Shown one piece after another: positions 1 through 6,008 of a DNA stretch of 20,948 bases. The position numbers and the translations under genes were made by a program. The stretch comes from a virus: IMG/VR virus record IMGVR_UViG_3300021197_001266, positions 1-20,948 of that record. The stretch is one strand, 5' to 3'. The notes under the pieces were generated by a model. The model saw only the letters and a list, made by a program, of their open reading frames with translations, was not told the origin of the DNA and did not search any database. Position 1 is the stretch's first letter, and each line of letters starts with the position of its first letter.

Positions 1-185
1 GGGAACTCATTGTAGATGTAGTACACGTTCGTTGCCGAGTAGCACGTACCGAAAAGGAAGGCAAGCCAATAGCGTTGTTCGACATTAAGCTCGAAACGGT
101 CTGCGACATACCGCAGGGCGTCGTTGCTCGGGTCGATGTCTTTCGCCTGGGAGGACTCGACGTGGTATGTCAGGTAATCCACCAT
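1..185 (-). CDS. Probable amino acid:DNA transferase (alpha-glutamyl/putrescinyl thymine pyrophosphorylase-like), N-terminal part
   Basis: The reading frame starts at the ATG ending at 185 and is still open at the left edge, so only the first 61 residues are visible. It overlaps the stop of the acetyltransferase gene by 16 nt. The start reads MVDYLTYHVESS, then DIDPSNDALRYV, DRFELNVEQRYWLAFL and YSATNVYYIYNEF. From memory this series (an 'ALRYV.DRFELN.EQRYWLAFL.GTCYS' block followed by 'YYIYNEF') is the N-terminal signature of the phage family predicted to displace pyrophosphate from an activated hydroxymethylpyrimidine in DNA and join an amino acid or amine to it (aGPT-Pplase, clade 3 type). 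The assignment rests on recalled family sequence and on the neighbouring dioxygenase. The catalytic part lies outside the window, so activity cannot be judged. It would act on phage DNA in the cytoplasm. Confidence 0.68.
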   Translation of the reverse strand, partial: MVDYLTYHVESSQAKDIDPSNDALRYVADRFELNVEQRYWLAFLFGTCYSATNVYYIYNEF

Positions 186-574
186 ACGTTTTGCTCAACA
201 CCTTTCTTTGTCGCGGTCTTGCCCATTTTCGTCATCCCCATTGCTTCGTAAAATGCATTGCCCCGGTCGTTGTCCACATTGCACTTTAGCATTAGCGGAC
301 GCGGGAGTGCTTCAAACAATGCCCGGCCCACGCCCTTGCGTGTCGTTTCATTGTCGACGCCTATCTCATGCAGGATGTAGGCCGTGTACATTTTTGAGTA
401 CGAGTAGCGCATGAAGCCCCCGCCGTCAATAACAAAAAACTTGCTTTTGTTTGTCTTGTCAAGGTAGTGGTCCCAACTCCAAAAAAGGTTGAAGGAACCG
501 ATGTGTGCCTTGTGTTGCTTGTGGATCTTCTTAATGAAGTCCGCGTCGGTGGCTGTGGCTTTCCTAATCTGCAT
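170..574 (-). CDS. GNAT-family N-acetyltransferase
   Basis: This 134-residue protein has the normal length of a single GNAT domain. It begins MQIRKATATDADFI, typical of the first strand and helix. The acetyl-CoA pyrophosphate-binding loop is visible as ETTRKGVGRALFEAL (about residues 76-90), matching the family's R/QxxGxG/A motif. It is followed by VDNDRGNAFYEAMGM (about 100-114), the usual 'N..A..FYE..GF' motif B. The family moves an acyl group from acyl-CoA to an amine. It overlaps the amidotransferase gene upstream by 11 nt and the DNA-transferase gene downstream by 16 nt, so it is translated as part of the base-modification cassette. I infer that its substrate could be an amine on the modified base or a small amine precursor. 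The sequence itself does not show the substrate. Confidence 0.85.
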   Translation of the reverse strand: MQIRKATATDADFIKKIHKQHKAHIGSFNLFWSWDHYLDKTNKSKFFVIDGGGFMRYSYSKMYTAYILHEIGVDNETTRKGVGRALFEALPRPLMLKCNVDNDRGNAFYEAMGMTKMGKTATKKGVEQNVWWIT

Positions 575-1175
575 AGAGGGTGTCCGGTTTTAGTTCTCGT
601 GGATCCAACGATGGTTCGGCCCTCATGAAAATATCCCTTGTCGAAGCAAAATAAAGCCCTCCTCGGTATGTTGCAAGCCACAAAGGCCGGTTGGTGTTTC
701 GGAAGGCGGTCAGCACGTTAGACGAGCTTAAAACAAGCCCCGCAAAACTGGCGTTGCGTTCCTTCGTCCACTGCAACATTTCTTCCGGCTCGTCATTGCA
801 CAATTCGAGCAGAAGCGCACCGTCGTTGTCGCACGACAAAGTGACGTTGTAGGCCGCTTCCATTTGGTCTTTTGTACGCATGTCGAGGACACCGTTGAAT
901 ACGAGTGCCGATGACTTGTTTGACAAAGGTTGGTTGTTGTTATGGTCCAAGTAGTCCCCGCTTGTCGAGTAGCGGTTGTGAAAAATAATGCGCGTGGCCT
1001 TGGGTATGTCAAGCTCGTCGAGGTCGTGTACTTTCTTGACCTTTATACCGTTGTCCACGTACGCAAGTCCAAAGCTGTGCAACCCACGGATCTTACTTTC
1101 ACGCATAATGCGCTTGAGCAATTCGTAGTGCGCGGCTTGTGGCGCGTCGCACGAAAACCCGACGACACCACACAT
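564..1175 (-). CDS. Stand-alone class II glutamine amidotransferase (Ntn hydrolase)
   Basis: This 203-residue protein opens MCGVVGF, so removal of Met would expose the catalytic N-terminal cysteine of class II glutaminases. Other family landmarks are in order: RGLHSFG (residues 30-36), HNRYSTSG (66-73), the NNQPLS segment (80-85), FNGVL with the oxyanion-hole Asn94-Gly95, CDNDGALLLEL (115-125), and a late NRPLW...GGLYFAST block. The glutaminase half therefore looks intact. No synthetase, isomerase or phosphoribosyltransferase domain follows, unlike GlmS, PurF or AsnB, so a partner must use the ammonia or the glutamyl group. The start overlaps the dioxygenase stop (TAATG). I infer that it feeds nitrogen, or performs an amide transfer, for DNA base hypermodification by the neighbouring enzymes. 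A role in host sugar or nucleotide amidation is less likely given the operon. Confidence 0.88.
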   Translation of the reverse strand: MCGVVGFSCDAPQAAHYELLKRIMRESKIRGLHSFGLAYVDNGIKVKKVHDLDELDIPKATRIIFHNRYSTSGDYLDHNNNQPLSNKSSALVFNGVLDMRTKDQMEAAYNVTLSCDNDGALLLELCNDEPEEMLQWTKERNASFAGLVLSSSNVLTAFRNTNRPLWLATYRGGLYFASTRDIFMRAEPSLDPRELKPDTLYAD

Positions 1176-2071
1176 TACGTTAGCCGCGTTCCCTTTTCAC
1201 GCCGCTTGGCGATTTGCGCCTCCTCGTCTCCTGTGCCGCAGTGTATCATATTCTCCCGGTAGTACATTACCAGCGAAACGCGGGTTGCGTCTTCGTCGAT
1301 CTTGTGTATGGGGGTGTTGCCGTGCCATTGGTGAACGTCGGTAAGAAGCAGGTCGCAATTCTGCATATCAAACGCGACCCCCCACTTGGGCAATACGAAG
1401 TAGCCTCCCGTGTATCGACCTTTGCGAAGCACGACGAGGTTTCCAAAACCCTCGGCGAAGTCACCCTTGTCGGTGTGTACTGCCGTTTGCCAATTCTTGT
1501 TCACGGTTACAGTTGTGAACGCCGTGTTGTGAATTGTAAAGTCACTCGACGTCCCGTCAGCAACGGCCCTTTGCTTGGCGTAGTGTTCCGGCATGAGTTC
1601 CGCGTACTTGGCATCAACAAATTTGATGATTGGGTACGCCTTCTTAAACTTGTCAAACTCTTGAATGTTAAAGGCCGTTTGACGACAATACGGGAACCGC
1701 GCATTGCGATCGAAGTAGCCTATGATACCGCTATTCGCGGCCGCGTCCGAGGCATTCGTTTTCGAGCGCGTGCCGTCTTTCTTTATTGCGTATCGCGTGC
1801 TGTTGCCCTTTTCGTCTTTTTGTCCAAGAGAGCCACCACGATTGTTAGTGGGTTTTGCGGCTTTTTTCAAATTGAGATAAGCTGCTTCTGCAATGTTTGC
1901 CGGTATGACGCGCTTGCGAAACTTCGCAATGCATTGTCCGGTCTCCTCGTCGTACACATCAACGTCGGACGTGAACAGCTTGTTGTAGTCCTTGTCTGTT
2001 AACAACGTCCCCGAGAGCTTTTTGGTTTGCTCGTCCGTAAGTCGTGGACGAATCTTATGAACCTTTGCCAT
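1175..2071 (-). CDS. TET/JBP-family 2-oxoglutarate/Fe(II) dioxygenase
   Basis: This is a 298-residue protein from the ATG ending at 2071 (MAKVHKIRPRL). A longer frame reaches 2134 but runs deep into the ParB gene. The double-stranded beta-helix core shows the iron ligands His199-x-Asp201 in AVHTDKGD and a distal histidine in DVHQWHGNTPI (His250, or His247). Arg264 in ATRVSLVMYYREN fits the 2-oxoglutarate-binding arginine. The blocks PYCRQTAFN (128-136), TVTVNKNWQTAVH, FGNLVVL..G.YTGGYFVLP and WHGNTPI match what I know of phage TET/JBP proteins. These oxidise the methyl of 5-methylcytosine or thymine in DNA to hydroxymethyl. No cytosine C5-methyltransferase is visible here, so the target base (T or 5mC) is undecided. 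The product would be the starting point for the downstream amidotransferase, acetyltransferase and DNA-transferase genes. The N-terminal 110 residues are basic and low-complexity, perhaps a DNA-contacting extension. Confidence 0.86.
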   Translation of the reverse strand: MAKVHKIRPRLTDEQTKKLSGTLLTDKDYNKLFTSDVDVYDEETGQCIAKFRKRVIPANIAEAAYLNLKKAAKPTNNRGGSLGQKDEKGNSTRYAIKKDGTRSKTNASDAAANSGIIGYFDRNARFPYCRQTAFNIQEFDKFKKAYPIIKFVDAKYAELMPEHYAKQRAVADGTSSDFTIHNTAFTTVTVNKNWQTAVHTDKGDFAEGFGNLVVLRKGRYTGGYFVLPKWGVAFDMQNCDLLLTDVHQWHGNTPIHKIDEDATRVSLVMYYRENMIHCGTGDEEAQIAKRREKGTRLT

Positions 2072-2669
2072 AGTATGCTTTCTTGACCACCTCATAGATT
2101 GTGTCCGTAAGGTTGTCAGTGCCATGCACCTCACGCAAGGCCAGTTCCCACTTTTTGAAGTCCGGCTCGGTTTCGCTGTTCATGAACAATTGAACCATGC
2201 GCACTTGTGAGTTCGGCACGAGGTCTTCGGGGTAGTCGTATTCCCCTGTGTCCTCAATGTCGCTTTCAAAGTTTGTGTCGTCCCACTTCGGAACATACAA
2301 ACCCCAGTCCTTGAGGTCGTCCACTTCCCACTCATTCGCCAACATGTCCCAGTCCCATTCACCAAAACTCACGTTGTCCTTAACGACAAATTGGCTGTCT
2401 TTCGCTTCGTCCCATTCACGCACGTACACCGGCACTTCTTTAAGGCCGGCGCGCTGTGCCGCTTGAAGTCGCATGTTGCCCCCTAGCACCACGCCATCTT
2501 TGTCAATCACAATGGGCCGAGCTTCGAGCATTTCAGGGAACTCTCGTAGGCTCTTGACGAGCTTGTCGAGTTGGTCCTTGCGGATTGCGCGAGGGTTGTT
2601 AGGATTCGTCTTCAGGGTGGCCGTTTTCGCGTATGTCACGGGCCGTGTTGAGGATGGTTTCAAGGGCAT
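2055..2669 (-). CDS. ParB/Srx-fold domain protein
   Basis: This 204-residue protein begins at the ATG ending at 2669 (MPLKPSSTRP). TTG at 2702 and GTG at 2639 are alternatives, and none has a clear ribosome binding site. The N-terminal half is a ParB-type domain: TNPNNPRAIRKDQLDKLVKS (21-40), then PIVIDKDGVVLGGNMRLQAA with the GGNMR motif (63-67) in place of the GEhR nucleotide loop of chromosomal ParB. KDNVSFGEWDWDMLANEW (98-114) is typical of phage ParB-like proteins linked to DNA modification enzymes. There is no fused methyltransferase and no ParB helix-turn-helix. It ends 17 nt inside the start of the dioxygenase gene. Known members of this fold bind or hydrolyse nucleotides, and one (archaeal SerK) is a kinase. 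I infer a role in DNA binding for the dioxygenase or in activating the hydroxymethyl base. Confidence 0.82.
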   Translation of the reverse strand: MPLKPSSTRPVTYAKTATLKTNPNNPRAIRKDQLDKLVKSLREFPEMLEARPIVIDKDGVVLGGNMRLQAAQRAGLKEVPVYVREWDEAKDSQFVVKDNVSFGEWDWDMLANEWEVDDLKDWGLYVPKWDDTNFESDIEDTGEYDYPEDLVPNSQVRMVQLFMNSETEPDFKKWELALREVHGTDNLTDTIYEVVKKAYYGKGS

Positions 2670-2850
2670 TGTAAAAGTTTTCGTCTGCGGTTGCGAAGTC
2701 AATGAGGATGGCCCATGACGTTGAGGTCATGGTTGCGCACTCAAGGTTTGCCGTTTCGTCGTTGTTGTTCTTCGACGTGAACAGCACCCAGTCGTCGCAT
2801 TGATTCAAAAGGCGTTTTGCCTTGCGGAAGGTCAGAGGTTTGTTTGTCAT
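2599..2850 (-). CDS. Hypothetical protein (83 aa)
   Basis: The start overlaps the stop of the DnaA-like gene as ATGA, which supports translation. The protein starts MTNKPLTFRKAKRLLNQCDDW and has a central hydrophobic strand-helix stretch (TSTSWAILIDFATADENFYNALETILN) and an acidic tail. No known motif is recognised. The 3' part overlaps the start of the ParB gene by about 70 nt if the ATG at 2669 is used. It is short and probably globular. I cannot assign a function. Confidence 0.7.
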   Translation of the reverse strand: MTNKPLTFRKAKRLLNQCDDWVLFTSKNNNDETANLECATMTSTSWAILIDFATADENFYNALETILNTARDIRENGHPEDES

Positions 2851-3203
2851 GCGCTACAAAATGATTCATACCGACGTTTCGTGTCTTTTTCAACTTCCAT
2901 GAGATCGGTTAATGTTCGTGTATGATGCATTGCGGTAGCGTGGTCTCTTGACATGACGCGGCCAATAGCAAAAAAGGTCCAACCTTGGTCACGCAAAAAG
3001 TGACTTACCATTTTCCGCGCGTCTACCAATTCACGTTTTCGAACAGGCCCAATCACGTCAGCCCATTTTACTCCGAGTCTATTTACACCGCGTTGTACGC
3101 GATGCAAAGCCTCCTCTCGATTCATGTGGTAGCCGTCTTCGTGTGCAAGGTTTCCGACGGCAAGGTAGAAGGATTCACTTGGGATTGTTTCGTTTGCTTT
3201 CAT
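2847..3203 (-). CDS. DnaA domain IV-like DNA-binding protein
   Basis: This is a 118-residue protein. Residues 55-98 (RKRELVDARKMVSHFLRD, then FAIGRVMSRDHATAMHH) match the DnaA C-terminal domain: an 'R..I...RQ...YL.R' helix, a helix-turn-helix, and the SRDHATAMHH signature (85-94). In DnaA that signature (RDHsTVxHA) contacts the DnaA box. The AAA+ ATPase domain is absent, so this is a free DNA-binding domain with an unrelated N-terminal 50 residues. It overlaps the zinc-ribbon gene by 29 nt and couples to the next gene by ATGA. I infer a role in origin binding or in regulating the replication or modification genes. It could compete with host DnaA, but I saw no clear DnaA box in the window. Confidence 0.82.
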   Translation of the reverse strand: MKANETIPSESFYLAVGNLAHEDGYHMNREEALHRVQRGVNRLGVKWADVIGPVRKRELVDARKMVSHFLRDQGWTFFAIGRVMSRDHATAMHHTRTLTDLMEVEKDTKRRYESFCSA

Positions 3204-3582
3204 TTATTAGTTTTTTCAGGGTTTGAACCATTTTTCGGTTGCACCCGCTACAATTTGAAGCCGGTTCATGGGTGCCTAAAACACGATTGTATATGTCTGC
3301 GAGGTCGCCATCGGTCAATGACTTCGGATCGCTTTTCACAATGTCCAAGAACTCCTCGACCTGTGTCAATTGTTCGGCAGTAATGACCGCATCCCACTTT
3401 CCTAACGGACACTCCGCCCACTTGAGGCGTGTCTTGGTCGGCATGTGGCACCCGCACAGCTTTGAGTCGGTAAACGCCTCAGTGACGAGAGGGCCGCAAC
3501 TTTTGGTGGATCCAACAAAGTGCTCGCACTCGCGGCAGATGTTTAGACGGTTAGCCCTTGTTTGTGCGCTGACGATGAACAT
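3175..3582 (-). CDS. Cysteine-rich zinc-ribbon protein
   Basis: This is a 135-residue protein from the ATG ending at 3582 (MFIVSAQTRANRLNICREC). Cysteines fall at 16 and 19 (ICREC), 29, 43 and 45 (LCGCHMPTKTRLKWAECPLGKW), 58, and 111 and 114 (NCSGCNRKMV). The layout is one zinc-binding cluster early and a second CxxC near the C-terminus, with a helical SLTDGDLADIYNRVLGT segment between. Similar small proteins with 'CGC.M..KT+L..A.CP.GKW' occur in Bacteroidota phages, mostly without a known function. It sits between a sigma factor and a DnaA-like gene, so a nucleic-acid or transcription role is reasonable. An extended frame starting at 3648 overlaps the sigma gene more and is less likely. Confidence 0.75.
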   Translation of the reverse strand: MFIVSAQTRANRLNICRECEHFVGSTKSCGPLVTEAFTDSKLCGCHMPTKTRLKWAECPLGKWDAVITAEQLTQVEEFLDIVKSDPKSLTDGDLADIYNRVLGTHEPASNCSGCNRKMVQTLKKLINESKRNNPK

Positions 3583-4039
3583 TGCGGAGTTTCGTTTTGC
3601 TTCGGTGTAGCGATTGGTACAATGTGGTGTGCGGTATGCCGGATTCACGCGCTACTTCACGGAGGTTGTAGCCGTCAAGGTAAAGCTGAAGCACAGTTCG
3701 GTCAAACCATGCGAGGTGACGAGTCAAAATTAGCGCGTTCTCGGCCTCGAAAGGGTCGCGCGTAGGGTTGGGGTTAGCTAACTCTATTTGAGGCGCGTCT
3801 AAGTACGTGTAAAGCGATTTGAAGGCACCTCGTGTTGACTCTGTCCACATGGCTTGTCGAAAGTACGCATTGTACTTGCCAATTGGCCGGCCTGTGCGTT
3901 CAAGTGCGTCGACAGTTCGCAGGTAAGTATTGTGGACCAGATCGGAGCCGTCCGAATGGAAAGCCCGAGCCGAGGCTACGAGGTCGTCGTAGTTCTTAAC
4001 GAACCACTCGTCAAATCCCTTTCGAGCTTCTGAGCTCAT
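3551..4039 (-). CDS. ECF-like RNA polymerase sigma factor
   Basis: This is a 162-residue protein from the ATG ending at 4039 (MSSEARKGFDEW). A longer open frame upstream is only the shadow of the NinG gene. Residues 8-75 resemble sigma region 2, including SDLVHNTYLRTVDAL (32-46), where the family has 'DLVQETFLR'. After a short linker, residues 108-155 form region 4: LAWFDRTVLQLYLDGYNLREVARESGIPHTTLYQSLHRSKTKLR, a helix-turn-helix of the -35-binding type. The length is normal for an ECF or phage-type sigma factor. It overlaps the NinG-like gene by 29 nt and the zinc protein by 32 nt. I infer that it redirects host RNA polymerase to a phage promoter class, most simply the late genes. Region 2.4 is divergent, so promoter specificity cannot be read from the sequence. 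Confidence 0.78.
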   Translation of the reverse strand: MSSEARKGFDEWFVKNYDDLVASARAFHSDGSDLVHNTYLRTVDALERTGRPIGKYNAYFRQAMWTESTRGAFKSLYTYLDAPQIELANPNPTRDPFEAENALILTRHLAWFDRTVLQLYLDGYNLREVARESGIPHTTLYQSLHRSKTKLRNVHRQRTNKG

Positions 4040-4394
4040 CGACGAGGCGTTTGTAGTGATGATACATTTGTTCAAGCTCGGCGCGCGTCCACTTGCGCGT
4101 TTGCTTAGACTCGATGAACAACTCCTCGGCCTTTCCTTCTCCAAACTCAGCGTCGAGGTTGCGGGCAAATAGAAATTGCTCACCCGACCGAAACCCGTTA
4201 CAACGCTTGCATTGAAACTGCACATTGTCTTCGTGCCACCGGGTAGACATACAAGCCCGAGACATAAAGTGGCCCGCGTCAACTTCAGACCAATGCCGCC
4301 TCGAATGACACGTATAGCAATTTCCGTGACCAGTTTCGTCGGTGGTGCGGAGCCGCACGTATTGCGAGAAAACCGCATCAACTTTTTTGACCAT
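4011..4394 (-). CDS. ninG: NinG/Rap-type recombination protein
   Basis: This is a 127-residue protein from the ATG ending at 4394 (MVKKVDAVFSQYVRLR). Cys26-Cys29 (NCYTCH) and Cys62-Cys65 (QCKRCN) form a zinc site, with DAGHFMSR (39-46) between them and a later acidic/basic helical tail. This is the NinG/Rap pattern ('Y+R.RD....C.TC......DAGHF.SR......N...QC..CN'). Lambda Rap/NinG acts at recombination intermediates in Red-mediated exchange and has a Holliday-junction-type nuclease fold. The protein is shorter than lambda NinG (about 204 aa), lacking part of its N-terminus. A longer frame reaching 4565 is basic and low-complexity and lies inside the upstream gene. Overlap with the upstream gene is 17 nt. 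Confidence 0.82.
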   Translation of the reverse strand: MVKKVDAVFSQYVRLRTTDETGHGNCYTCHSRRHWSEVDAGHFMSRACMSTRWHEDNVQFQCKRCNGFRSGEQFLFARNLDAEFGEGKAEELFIESKQTRKWTRAELEQMYHHYKRLVDELRSSKGI

Positions 4395-5022
4395 TGCCCC
4401 CCTCGGGTTCGTGGTCTTTCGTGTTCGGGTACGGGATGTGCTTCCACCTGCCACGTTCGTCTGTTTGGACGCGGTCGATTTCGATTTCCTTTGCAGCGGC
4501 TTCTTTCGCTTCACGGCGTTGTTGTGCGTATTGGTCGTACAAGGCTTTGACCTGTTCGTCGTCAAGGTTGTTGGGTGTTGCTTTTTTTAGCTCGCCCCAG
4601 TTGGCCTCACGACGCTCGGCTCGTTCGCCTTCGTACTGCTGAAATATAGACACAAGTTCAGGAAGTTTCAAACGCTCGTAACCGGGGCGATATTGGCCCG
4701 TCTTCAGACGGTGAAAGATGATGGCCCATTCTTCGAGCTTCATGGCCGGAAACTCAAGCCGCAAATGTTCGACCGCGTCAATGATGTCTTGGTCCGCTGT
4801 AATGGTGCGTGAATAGTCCAAGTACCGGAGCGTCTTCGCCACCATTGCGATGAGGGCGGCTTCGACCGCCGCTTGGGTTTGTGGGTTGTTGTAGGCGGCT
4901 TGGACGTTGACGCCCTTACTCCACGCCTCCACCGGATCCATCCGCGAGGCGACGGAGATGTTGCTCAATGAGTGAGCCGTCCGTTGGACCATTTGCTGTT
5001 GTGCCTTTGCGAGTTCGTTCAT
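4378..5022 (-). CDS. Replication partner, probable helicase-loader-like protein
   Basis: This is a 214-residue protein from the ATG ending at 5022 (MNELAKAQQQMVQ). Starts at 4992 or 4941 would reduce the 107-nt overlap with the initiator gene and are possible. The middle (ITADQDIIDAVEHLRLEFPAMKLEEW, then FHRLKTGQYRPGYERLKLPELVSIFQQY) matches a small helical domain I associate with Bacteroidota phage proteins that follow a replication initiator. Its position directly after the initiator is like gene P after gene O in lambda. The C-terminal third is highly charged and coiled-coil-like (EGERAERREA, then QQRREAKEAAAKEIEID). No Walker motifs are present, so it is not an ATPase loader of the DnaC type. 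The role is inferred from position and general similarity. Confidence 0.6.
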   Translation of the reverse strand: MNELAKAQQQMVQRTAHSLSNISVASRMDPVEAWSKGVNVQAAYNNPQTQAAVEAALIAMVAKTLRYLDYSRTITADQDIIDAVEHLRLEFPAMKLEEWAIIFHRLKTGQYRPGYERLKLPELVSIFQQYEGERAERREANWGELKKATPNNLDDEQVKALYDQYAQQRREAKEAAAKEIEIDRVQTDERGRWKHIPYPNTKDHEPEGGNGQKS

Positions 5023-5608
5023 TTGTTTTGAATTGTCCTGTTCTACGAATCCAACCGCGCGCGGCGGCCTTCCAATCTTTGATGGGTTTGCCACGGCCCT
5101 GTGTCCAACCGTTGGCCGAGTAGTAGTCAAAAAATTGCATTGCATCTACTTCCTCAGCGCCGACGGCTTTGAATGCTTCAATAACCTCATCCAAATTTTG
5201 TGGGCGTGCCACACTCCCTTTAATTGTTTTTTTACTTGTTCTCTCTACTGTATTAGTAGGGGTACTATTCTTTCCTTCTGCCCGAAAGGTTTTTTCGGTC
5301 TGCCCGAAACTATCTTTCCCCCTGCCCGTAAAAATTTTACGGTCTGCCTGAACGACGAGGTGACGCACCCGACCATCAGACGTCGCTGTAATGTAACCCA
5401 ACCCCTGAAGTTTTTTAATGGCCTTTGAAATTGTAGGACGGCTAATGCCATACTCTACTTGAATTGTTTCGTTCGACTTGTGGAAGCTCTTGCCCGCACC
5501 CGTGAACGAATCAATTTCAGCAAGCAATGCCTTCTCGACCAACGTCAACTTTGTGTCCAACCACACCTCAGCGGGGATCCAAACGCCTTTGAATTCTCGA
5601 TCCATCAT
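4916..5608 (-). CDS. Replication initiator with N-terminal winged helix-turn-helix
   Basis: This is a 230-residue protein. I chose the ATG ending at 5608 (MMDREFKGVWIPAEVW) because it overlaps the stop of the preceding small gene as ATGA. A longer start at 5653 would read through that gene. Residues 10-85 form a winged helix-turn-helix: LTLVEKALLAEIDSF, SNETIQVEYGISRPTISKAIKKLQGLGYI. Residues 86-135 are a polar, basic linker. Residues 136-192 are a compact C-terminal domain ending FFDYYSANGWTQGRGKPIKDWKAAARGWIRR, a pattern common in phage DnaD/DnaT-like and O-type replication proteins. The linker is encoded by DNA holding four regularly spaced iterons, so the gene probably carries the origin it recognises. 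It would open the phage origin and recruit host or phage helicase. Confidence 0.8.
   Translation of the reverse strand: MMDREFKGVWIPAEVWLDTKLTLVEKALLAEIDSFTGAGKSFHKSNETIQVEYGISRPTISKAIKKLQGLGYITATSDGRVRHLVVQADRKIFTGRGKDSFGQTEKTFRAEGKNSTPTNTVERTSKKTIKGSVARPQNLDEVIEAFKAVGAEEVDAMQFFDYYSANGWTQGRGKPIKDWKAAARGWIRRTGQFKTNERTRKGTTANGPTDGSLIEQHLRRLADGSGGGVE
5217..5364. other. Putative replication origin: four 22-bp iterons plus AT-rich stretch
   Basis: Four copies of a TCTGCCCGAAA-like core begin at 5277, 5299, 5321 and 5343, exactly 22 bp apart. The copies read TCTGCCCGAAA twice, CCTGCCCGTAA and TCTGCCTGAAC. Two units contain a dyad of the same geometry: CCGAAA-5 nt-TTTCGG at 5282-5298 and CCGTAA-5 nt-TTACGG at 5326-5342. 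Because 22 is not a multiple of 3, each copy is read in a different frame of the host gene, so the regularity is not a protein repeat. Next to it, 5217-5256 is strongly A/T rich and could be the unwinding element. The layout (iterons plus AT-rich DNA inside the initiator gene) is that of lambdoid origins. Function is inferred. Confidence 0.62.
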
Positions 5609-5784
5609 GGGTACGTCTGAATGACCCACCACCGCTTCTTCCAAGGATCCCATGTTTTGACGCCGTGATACGACCCGCTTTGCGGACCGGTGTGGTATTT
5701 GCTACTTTTCTTGTGTGAGTTGGGTGGGAGGGAGCCGTAGCCCCCTCCGTCAATCCAACCTTGTGCGAGGTTCTTGTCGCTCAT
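5605..5784 (-). CDS. Small hypothetical protein (59 aa), aromatic and glycine-rich
   Basis: The start overlaps the upstream stop as ATGA, and its own stop overlaps the next start as ATGA, which strongly suggests a translated gene. The peptide begins MSDKNLAQGWIDGGGYG, has a basic middle (NSHKKSSKYHTGPQSG) and ends with WDPWKKRWWVIQTYP, with four tryptophans in the last 20 residues. It has no cysteines, signal peptide or membrane segment. I do not recognise the family. It directly precedes the replication initiator, so it may be co-expressed for replication or host takeover. Confidence 0.6.
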   Translation of the reverse strand: MSDKNLAQGWIDGGGYGSLPPNSHKKSSKYHTGPQSGSYHGVKTWDPWKKRWWVIQTYP

Positions 5785-6008
5785 GTGTGCGCCGTTGGTT
5801 CAATTTTTTCAATTTCTTCCTGACGCACCATCACCTCGCCTTGCAACTGCAGGTACGTGGTGTCCTTCGTCGCAATGATTTCGGGCGCGTGCTTCAATAT
5901 GCCGCGAGGGTTTGTGCGAATCCAATTGCGAACCGTCACCACGGTCACCCCAAGTTCGTCGGCACATTTGTCCAAGCTCCCGAAGTGTTTAATAAGGTAG
6001 CCTTTCAT
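5781..6008 (-). CDS. Small helix-turn-helix protein (Cro/YdaS-like)
   Basis: This 75-residue protein begins MKGYLIKHFGSLDKCADELGVTVVTVRNWIRTN. The segment from about residue 10 to 34 is a classic helix-turn-helix of the Cro/YdaS type, with the glycine turn at LGV and the recognition helix TVVTVRNWI. The following PRGILKHAPEIIA resembles the 'G+P...A..I' element of small phage regulators. The C-terminal 30 residues are polar and acidic. It follows another DNA-binding gene after a 3-nt gap. I infer a small transcriptional regulator of the early genes, possibly acting on the dyads at 8167-8206. No integrase or divergent promoter is visible, so a lysogeny switch cannot be claimed. Confidence 0.75.
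   Translation of the reverse strand: MKGYLIKHFGSLDKCADELGVTVVTVRNWIRTNPRGILKHAPEIIATKDTTYLQLQGEVMVRQEEIEKIEPTAHT

Follow-up and report, generated by a model that had tools for sequence, protein, structure and literature searches.

For phages with modified thymidine, a route through 5-hydroxymethyldeoxyuridine (5-hmdU) has been described (PMC6449724). In Pseudomonas phage PaMx11 the genes gp46-gp51 encode an amino acid:DNA transferase (ADDT), a flavin enzyme, a GNAT acyltransferase, a P-loop kinase, an HMUDK_hel protein and a thymidylate synthase; our literature search found no paper on the PaMx11 enzymes. Other phages combine dioxygenases of the TET/JBP family with C5-methyltransferases or glycosyltransferases. 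Iyer and colleagues are said to have predicted in 2013 that TET/JBP products feed aGPT-Pplase/ADDT enzymes and kinases, and both the component enzymes and the concept of a TET-started hypermodification are already known. Here we describe a cassette at the left end of the 20,948-bp linear virus record IMGVR_UViG_3300021197_001266 (the window, i.e. the whole stretch analyzed), in which TET/JBP and ADDT genes are joined by a gene for a stand-alone class II glutaminase (GAT-II). With a probability of roughly 0.5, the cassette encodes a post-replicative pyrimidine hypermodification pathway located beside the packaging genes, in which TET, a kinase, and glutaminase plus ADDT would act together, the chemistry being deduced from the gene content.

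With the PaMx11 operon the cassette shares the combination of ADDT-type transferase, P-loop kinase and GNAT as well as a common ADDT fold. PaMx11 has a thymidylate synthase homologue, a glycinyltransferase and a flavin lyase, whereas the window has TET and the glutaminase. The cassette thus parallels this operon, TET taking the position of the hydroxymethylase and the glutaminase that of glycine and flavin lyase. Pseudomonas phage M6 and the ViI-like Vibrio and Salmonella phages, all with modified thymidine, resemble it in the ADDT, and M6 additionally in a homologue of 5-hmdU DNA kinase. No GAT-II profile match was found in the stretches of M6, PaMx11 and Vibrio phage D506 examined, which represent a part of the ADDT-bearing phages; D506 has a thymidylate synthase homologue, whereas the window has TET. 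The phage TET systems with C5-methyltransferase or glycosyltransferase share the dioxygenase family. They differ from the window, which has no C5-methyltransferase and where tailoring would fall to kinase, ADDT and glutaminase. The glutaminase resembles PurF and GlmS in fold and catalytic residues, and PurF exchanges pyrophosphate for ammonia, as is proposed here. In contrast to PurF and GlmS, glutaminase and synthase are separate proteins in the cassette, and the nitrogen would be accepted by a base in DNA. A glutamine-derived nitrogen step was not seen in the characterized DNA-modifying phages compared here.

Gene content and conservation of the cassette

Portal, tape measure and endolysin genes elsewhere in the window identify a tailed phage. 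The minus strand of positions 1-2669 carries five overlapping open reading frames (ORFs), and the window ends inside the last of these:

2055..2669, minus strand: ParB_N-fold protein, 204 aa from the ATG at 2669 (PF02195, 2.8e-8, above cut-off)
1175..2071, minus strand: TET/JBP 2-oxoglutarate- and Fe(II)-dependent dioxygenase, 298 aa (PF12851, 1.3e-29, above cut-off)
564..1175, minus strand: stand-alone class II glutaminase, 203 aa (PF13522, GATase_6, 1.9e-8, above cut-off)
170..574, minus strand: GNAT acyltransferase, 134 aa (PF13508, 1.2e-5, just below cut-off)
3..185, minus strand: ADDT, first 61 codons (PF18724, 0.0038, a fragment below cut-off)

Neighboring ORFs overlap by 17 nt (2055-2071), 1 nt (1175), 11 nt (564-574) and 16 nt (170-185), in agreement with the layout given in an initial annotation made from the sequence alone; the ParB_N gene may start at the ATG at 2669 or at a GTG at 2639. 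That annotation had also expected the cassette to continue past the left edge and to include a P-loop kinase there. This was borne out by the closest relatives long enough to reveal the region (L028, L004 and L003), in which the full ADDT gene is followed by genes for a P-loop kinase and the small and large terminase subunits. L028 shares 94.9% nucleotide identity with the left end of the window across 1,551 bp.

Glutaminase and ADDT genes are closely linked. In each collection scan the closest 80 loci were taken, so that the linkage figures describe this clade. The glutaminase-seeded scan found ADDT in 79, TET in 76, the kinase in 70 and GNAT in 63 of 80 loci, and the ADDT-seeded scan found the glutaminase in 79 of 80; a ParB_N gene was present in 68 of 80 and 65 of 80 scan loci, and most cassette loci have it upstream of TET. 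Among 80 distinct loci with both glutaminase and ADDT, the two genes are adjacent in 30 and separated by GNAT alone in 50, and 71 also contain TET. About 20 of 51 TET relatives have overlapping genes in the single order ParB-TET-GAT2-GNAT-ADDT, and in about 20 contigs checked singly the order ParB-TET-GAT2-GNAT-ADDT-kinase-TerS-TerL is constant. Ratios of nonsynonymous to synonymous substitution rates (dN/dS) against L004 are 0.084 for TET, 0.072 for the glutaminase and 0.029 for GNAT. The cassette genes are under purifying selection, and this together with the reciprocal GAT-II/ADDT linkage places the cassette well beyond chance.

Phages with the cassette are known almost only from metagenomes, and the related contigs mostly are fragments. 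Positions 1-6000 of the window had no match among annotated phages at the DNA level, and a search of annotated phage records with the glutaminase gave matches in 139 records, none of them reaching 60% identity, i.e. no close relative was present. Since IMG/VR holds many such cassettes, a widespread modification may have gone unnoticed.

Predicted functions of the encoded enzymes

The initial annotation named the dioxygenase as TET/JBP with an intact HxD...H...R motif. A profile check for a placement outside this family put the protein inside it: the PF12851 match spans profile positions 2-164 of 164, and the iron ligands H199, D201 and H250 as well as the 2-oxoglutarate-binding R264 are invariant across 16 diverse homologues. 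A single-sequence search of the PDB with the window TET gave no match, and a profile search reached TET2. The predicted base pocket consists of D204, Y270 and R272. Among cassette TETs two co-varying pocket types occur, Asp plus Arg (D,R) or Asn plus Leu (N,L). Sister clades of the window TET carry PF20691 glycosyltransferases. In the SAR11 phage HTVC112P (L226:6973-9195) a ParB-TET-FkbM methyltransferase arrangement was found, its TET being annotated as DnaJ/SNF2.

The free glutaminase with N-terminal Cys was likewise recovered. C2, R68, N94, G95 and D118 are kept in 40 of 40 homologues and align with GlmS and PurF, Cys2 being the N-terminal nucleophile. The structural model (mean predicted local distance difference test, pLDDT, 94.5) has nearly tied fold matches to GlmS (Z 19.9), PurF (Z 19.6) and EgtC (Z 18.2), and the best PDB sequence match is PurF (6e-9). 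The protein is predicted to act as nitrogen donor.

For the partial gene at 1-185, the assignment to the ADDT family holds on the basis of its full-length homologue in L028 (1365-2234, 289 aa), which matches PF18724 with 3e-18 (66.8 bits versus a cut-off of 26.2); complete ADDTs of relatives score above the cut-off. The model of this protein (pLDDT 96.2) best matches the 5-phosphomethyl-deoxyuridine (dU) glycinyltransferase of PaMx11 (8z2m; Z 19.6, root mean square deviation 3.3, 254 residues), the next-best match being a DNA glycosylase with Z 8.2. Because the ADDT profile found no match among PDB sequences, the link to the solved enzyme rests on the fold and on profile-profile comparison (hhalign, 2.2e-7).

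The kinase of L028 (2219-2743) has the Walker A motif GGTPGSGKTT and belongs to phrog_800 (7e-12), the same PHROG as the PF18748 5-hmdU DNA kinase of phage M6 (2e-39). This PHROG is labelled terminase small subunit, although the cassette kinase and the 5-hmdU DNA kinase homologue of M6 both belong to it. The cassette kinase profile also matches PaMx11 gp49, and the GNAT family profile matches gp48 (31.7 bits); against the PDB the GNAT profile gave no match. As to the annotated GNAT enzyme, family and PF13508 assignment stood, with a score just short of the cut-off. GNAT is missing in about one fifth to one quarter of the cassettes, and 13 distinct loci read ParB-TET-GAT2-ADDT-kinase. It therefore contributes a finishing step at most. 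The ParB_N gene was considered as a sign of partition; this was rejected, as the gene tracks the modification genes. Its product may direct the enzymes to DNA or load them onto it.

Proposed pathway and alternative explanations

In the proposed pathway, a pyrimidine in the phage DNA very probably would have its 5-methyl group oxidized to hydroxymethyl by TET. This group would then, with good though slightly lower confidence, be phosphorylated by the P-loop kinase, whose gene lies directly beyond the left edge. At even chances, GAT-II would hydrolyze glutamine and pass ammonia to ADDT, where displacement of the phosphate or pyrophosphate would yield a 5-aminomethyl base, a PurF-like logic applied to DNA. 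Where present, GNAT may, with slight preference over other roles, N-acylate the amine, e.g. to 5-acetylaminomethyl-dU. The modification likely shields phage DNA from host nucleases. We tentatively consider it possible that glutaminase and ADDT constitute a glutamine-dependent amidotransferase acting on a DNA base, by which TET-made 5-hydroxymethyluracil is converted to 5-aminomethyluracil in phage genomes. If this is true, glutamine-derived nitrogen joins the ways in which phages decorate their DNA, a phage TET works on thymine rather than on 5-methylcytosine (5mC), and candidate enzymes for placing an amine on DNA become available.

Direct amination is proposed mainly because of an exchange of modules in one slot. 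L011 and L012 are 96% identical in ParB and 82% in TET. The slot after TET holds GAT2-GNAT-ADDT in L011. In L012 and L013 it holds homologues of the PaMx11 glycinyltransferase (8z2m, 1e-7) and flavin-dependent lyase (8z2o, 6e-7), followed by the kinase. Neither a thymidylate synthase nor a C5-methyltransferase was found in the 32-kb contigs of L012 and L013, and TET thus is the visible source of the hydroxymethyl group there. The exchange suggests a common starting substrate for the two modules and perhaps a similar product.

Several points weigh against the proposed chemistry. The transfer of ammonia is suggested by gene pairing and predicted fold, with neither a fused protein nor a solved complex. 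In sequence, the ADDT of the cassette lies closer to the Vibrio/Salmonella-type ADDTs (phrog_3271), which serve phages with serine-derived adducts, and an amino acid could be the nucleophile used by ADDT. The L028 kinase has no match to PF18748 (HMUDK), its best match being PF18751 with 26.1 bits versus a cut-off of 27. The amine on the base is but one candidate substrate of GNAT, which we favor by a narrow measure.

Further counterevidence concerns the base. The pyrimidine oxidized by TET is probably thymine, giving 5-hydroxymethyluracil. In a cytosine version, a methyltransferase would generate 5mC, TET would convert it to 5-hydroxymethylcytosine (5hmC), and kinase, ADDT and glutaminase would produce an aminated 5-methyl-cytosine; we regard this as rather unlikely. 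Characterized phage TETs are known to oxidize 5mC, which speaks for this version. In published structures, Asp or Asn at HxD+3 faces cytosine N4 and a later His or Arg faces O2 or N3 (PMC7854593, PMC11040006). The window TET has Asp204 at the position where 5mC enzymes touch cytosine N4 (PMC7854593, PMC11040006), and the Asp204/Arg272 pocket, which resembles that of 5mC-recognizing TET-family enzymes, leans toward cytosine if taken alone. The same pocket Asp occurs in Melnitz-type TETs, which are encoded next to a C5-methyltransferase. Asp is hence found in both contexts, and the pocket residues were dropped as arbiter between thymine and cytosine. Melnitz-type phages couple C5-methyltransferase and TET in 66 of 71 loci (L228-L298); in 24 of them the profile of the cassette kinase also finds a match, a kinase that may phosphorylate 5hmC. 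A methyltransferase could also lie elsewhere in the phage, given that the contigs mostly are fragments, or methylation could be provided by the host.

By contrast to the Melnitz-type loci, a search of the window for a C5-methyltransferase (PF00145) gave no match, the neighbors of TET being ParB_N and GAT-II, and none was found in 44 of 48 and 31 of 33 related records. Matches were restricted to 4 and 2 records, respectively, Melnitz itself being among the 2. The C5-methyltransferase of L004 does possess motifs IV and VI, but it is carried by a clean ~950-bp insert, corresponding to window position ~5605, that is missing from the near-identical cassettes of the window and L002. The complete genome of HTVC112P, whose TET has the D/R pocket, contains no C5-methyltransferase. 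Short methyltransferase-like proteins were seen in three more relatives (L005, L011 and L010). The module swap, which involves homologues of a deoxyuridine-type glycinyltransferase, also argues against cytosine. A search for thymidylate synthase (PF00303) covered 48 related records, which are fragments, and not the window; 47 of these records had no match. Thymine is favored because cytosine methyltransferases are rare among the relatives and the one of L004 resides in a removable insert. Of the two substrates named in the initial annotation, T or 5mC, the former is thus preferred, with the pocket Asp fitting the latter.

Another explanation assumes that ADDT adds an amino acid, and that the glutaminase does not feed ammonia but only supplies glutamate, or acts afterwards by transferring or trimming a glutamyl group. 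The ADDT family and its best structural match are indeed amino-acid transferases, and the GAT-II fold is also near EgtC, a gamma-glutamyl hydrolase. A dedicated glutaminase that accompanies ADDT in all 80 distinct loci would be odd for this purpose, glutamate being abundant in cells, and the best PDB sequence match, PurF, is an ammonia-feeding enzyme. We therefore judge this explanation unlikely. The initial annotation had envisaged oxidation, activation, addition of an amino acid or amine, amidation by glutamine-derived ammonia and acetylation. Oxidation, activation, amine addition, use of glutamine nitrogen and acylation fit the data, with the product being a prediction. Addition of an amino acid followed by amidation is less favored: with no ATP-dependent amide ligase seen among the cassette genes, direct entry of nitrogen into the ADDT step better explains the glutaminase-ADDT pairing.

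Action on a small host metabolite or protein instead of DNA is highly improbable, because, although GAT-II, GNAT and P-loop kinase families also serve small-molecule metabolism and LUZ24-type phages have GAT-II near an ATP-grasp gene instead, known TET/JBP and ADDT cases act on DNA, their genes here are preceded by a ParB-fold gene and followed by terminase, and the best fold match of the ADDT (Z 19.6) is to an enzyme that modifies DNA.

Related loci and neighboring genes

Variants of the gene set were also found. Two loci binned to Phocaeicola and Prevotella (L180:8155-13806 and L182:8504-13750) combine ParB-GAT2-ADDT-P-loop kinase with a radical SAM protein in the vicinity of packaging genes, and the TET profile found no match there; in L180 a SAM synthetase gene precedes and a GNAT gene follows the kinase. 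In L179 (7349-12170), also without TET match, GAT2-ADDT-kinase adjoins an ORF of 700 aa that matches the TAGT profile. L049 (10001-13103) has a PALP-like pyridoxal phosphate enzyme between TET and ADDT. Among cultured phages, Caulobacter phage Cr30 gave profile matches for TET, ADDT and the kinase, and Nonlabens phage P12024L also carries related genes. In the window itself, positions 2847-3203 encode a small protein whose match to the DnaA C-terminal helix-turn-helix lies just above the cut-off.

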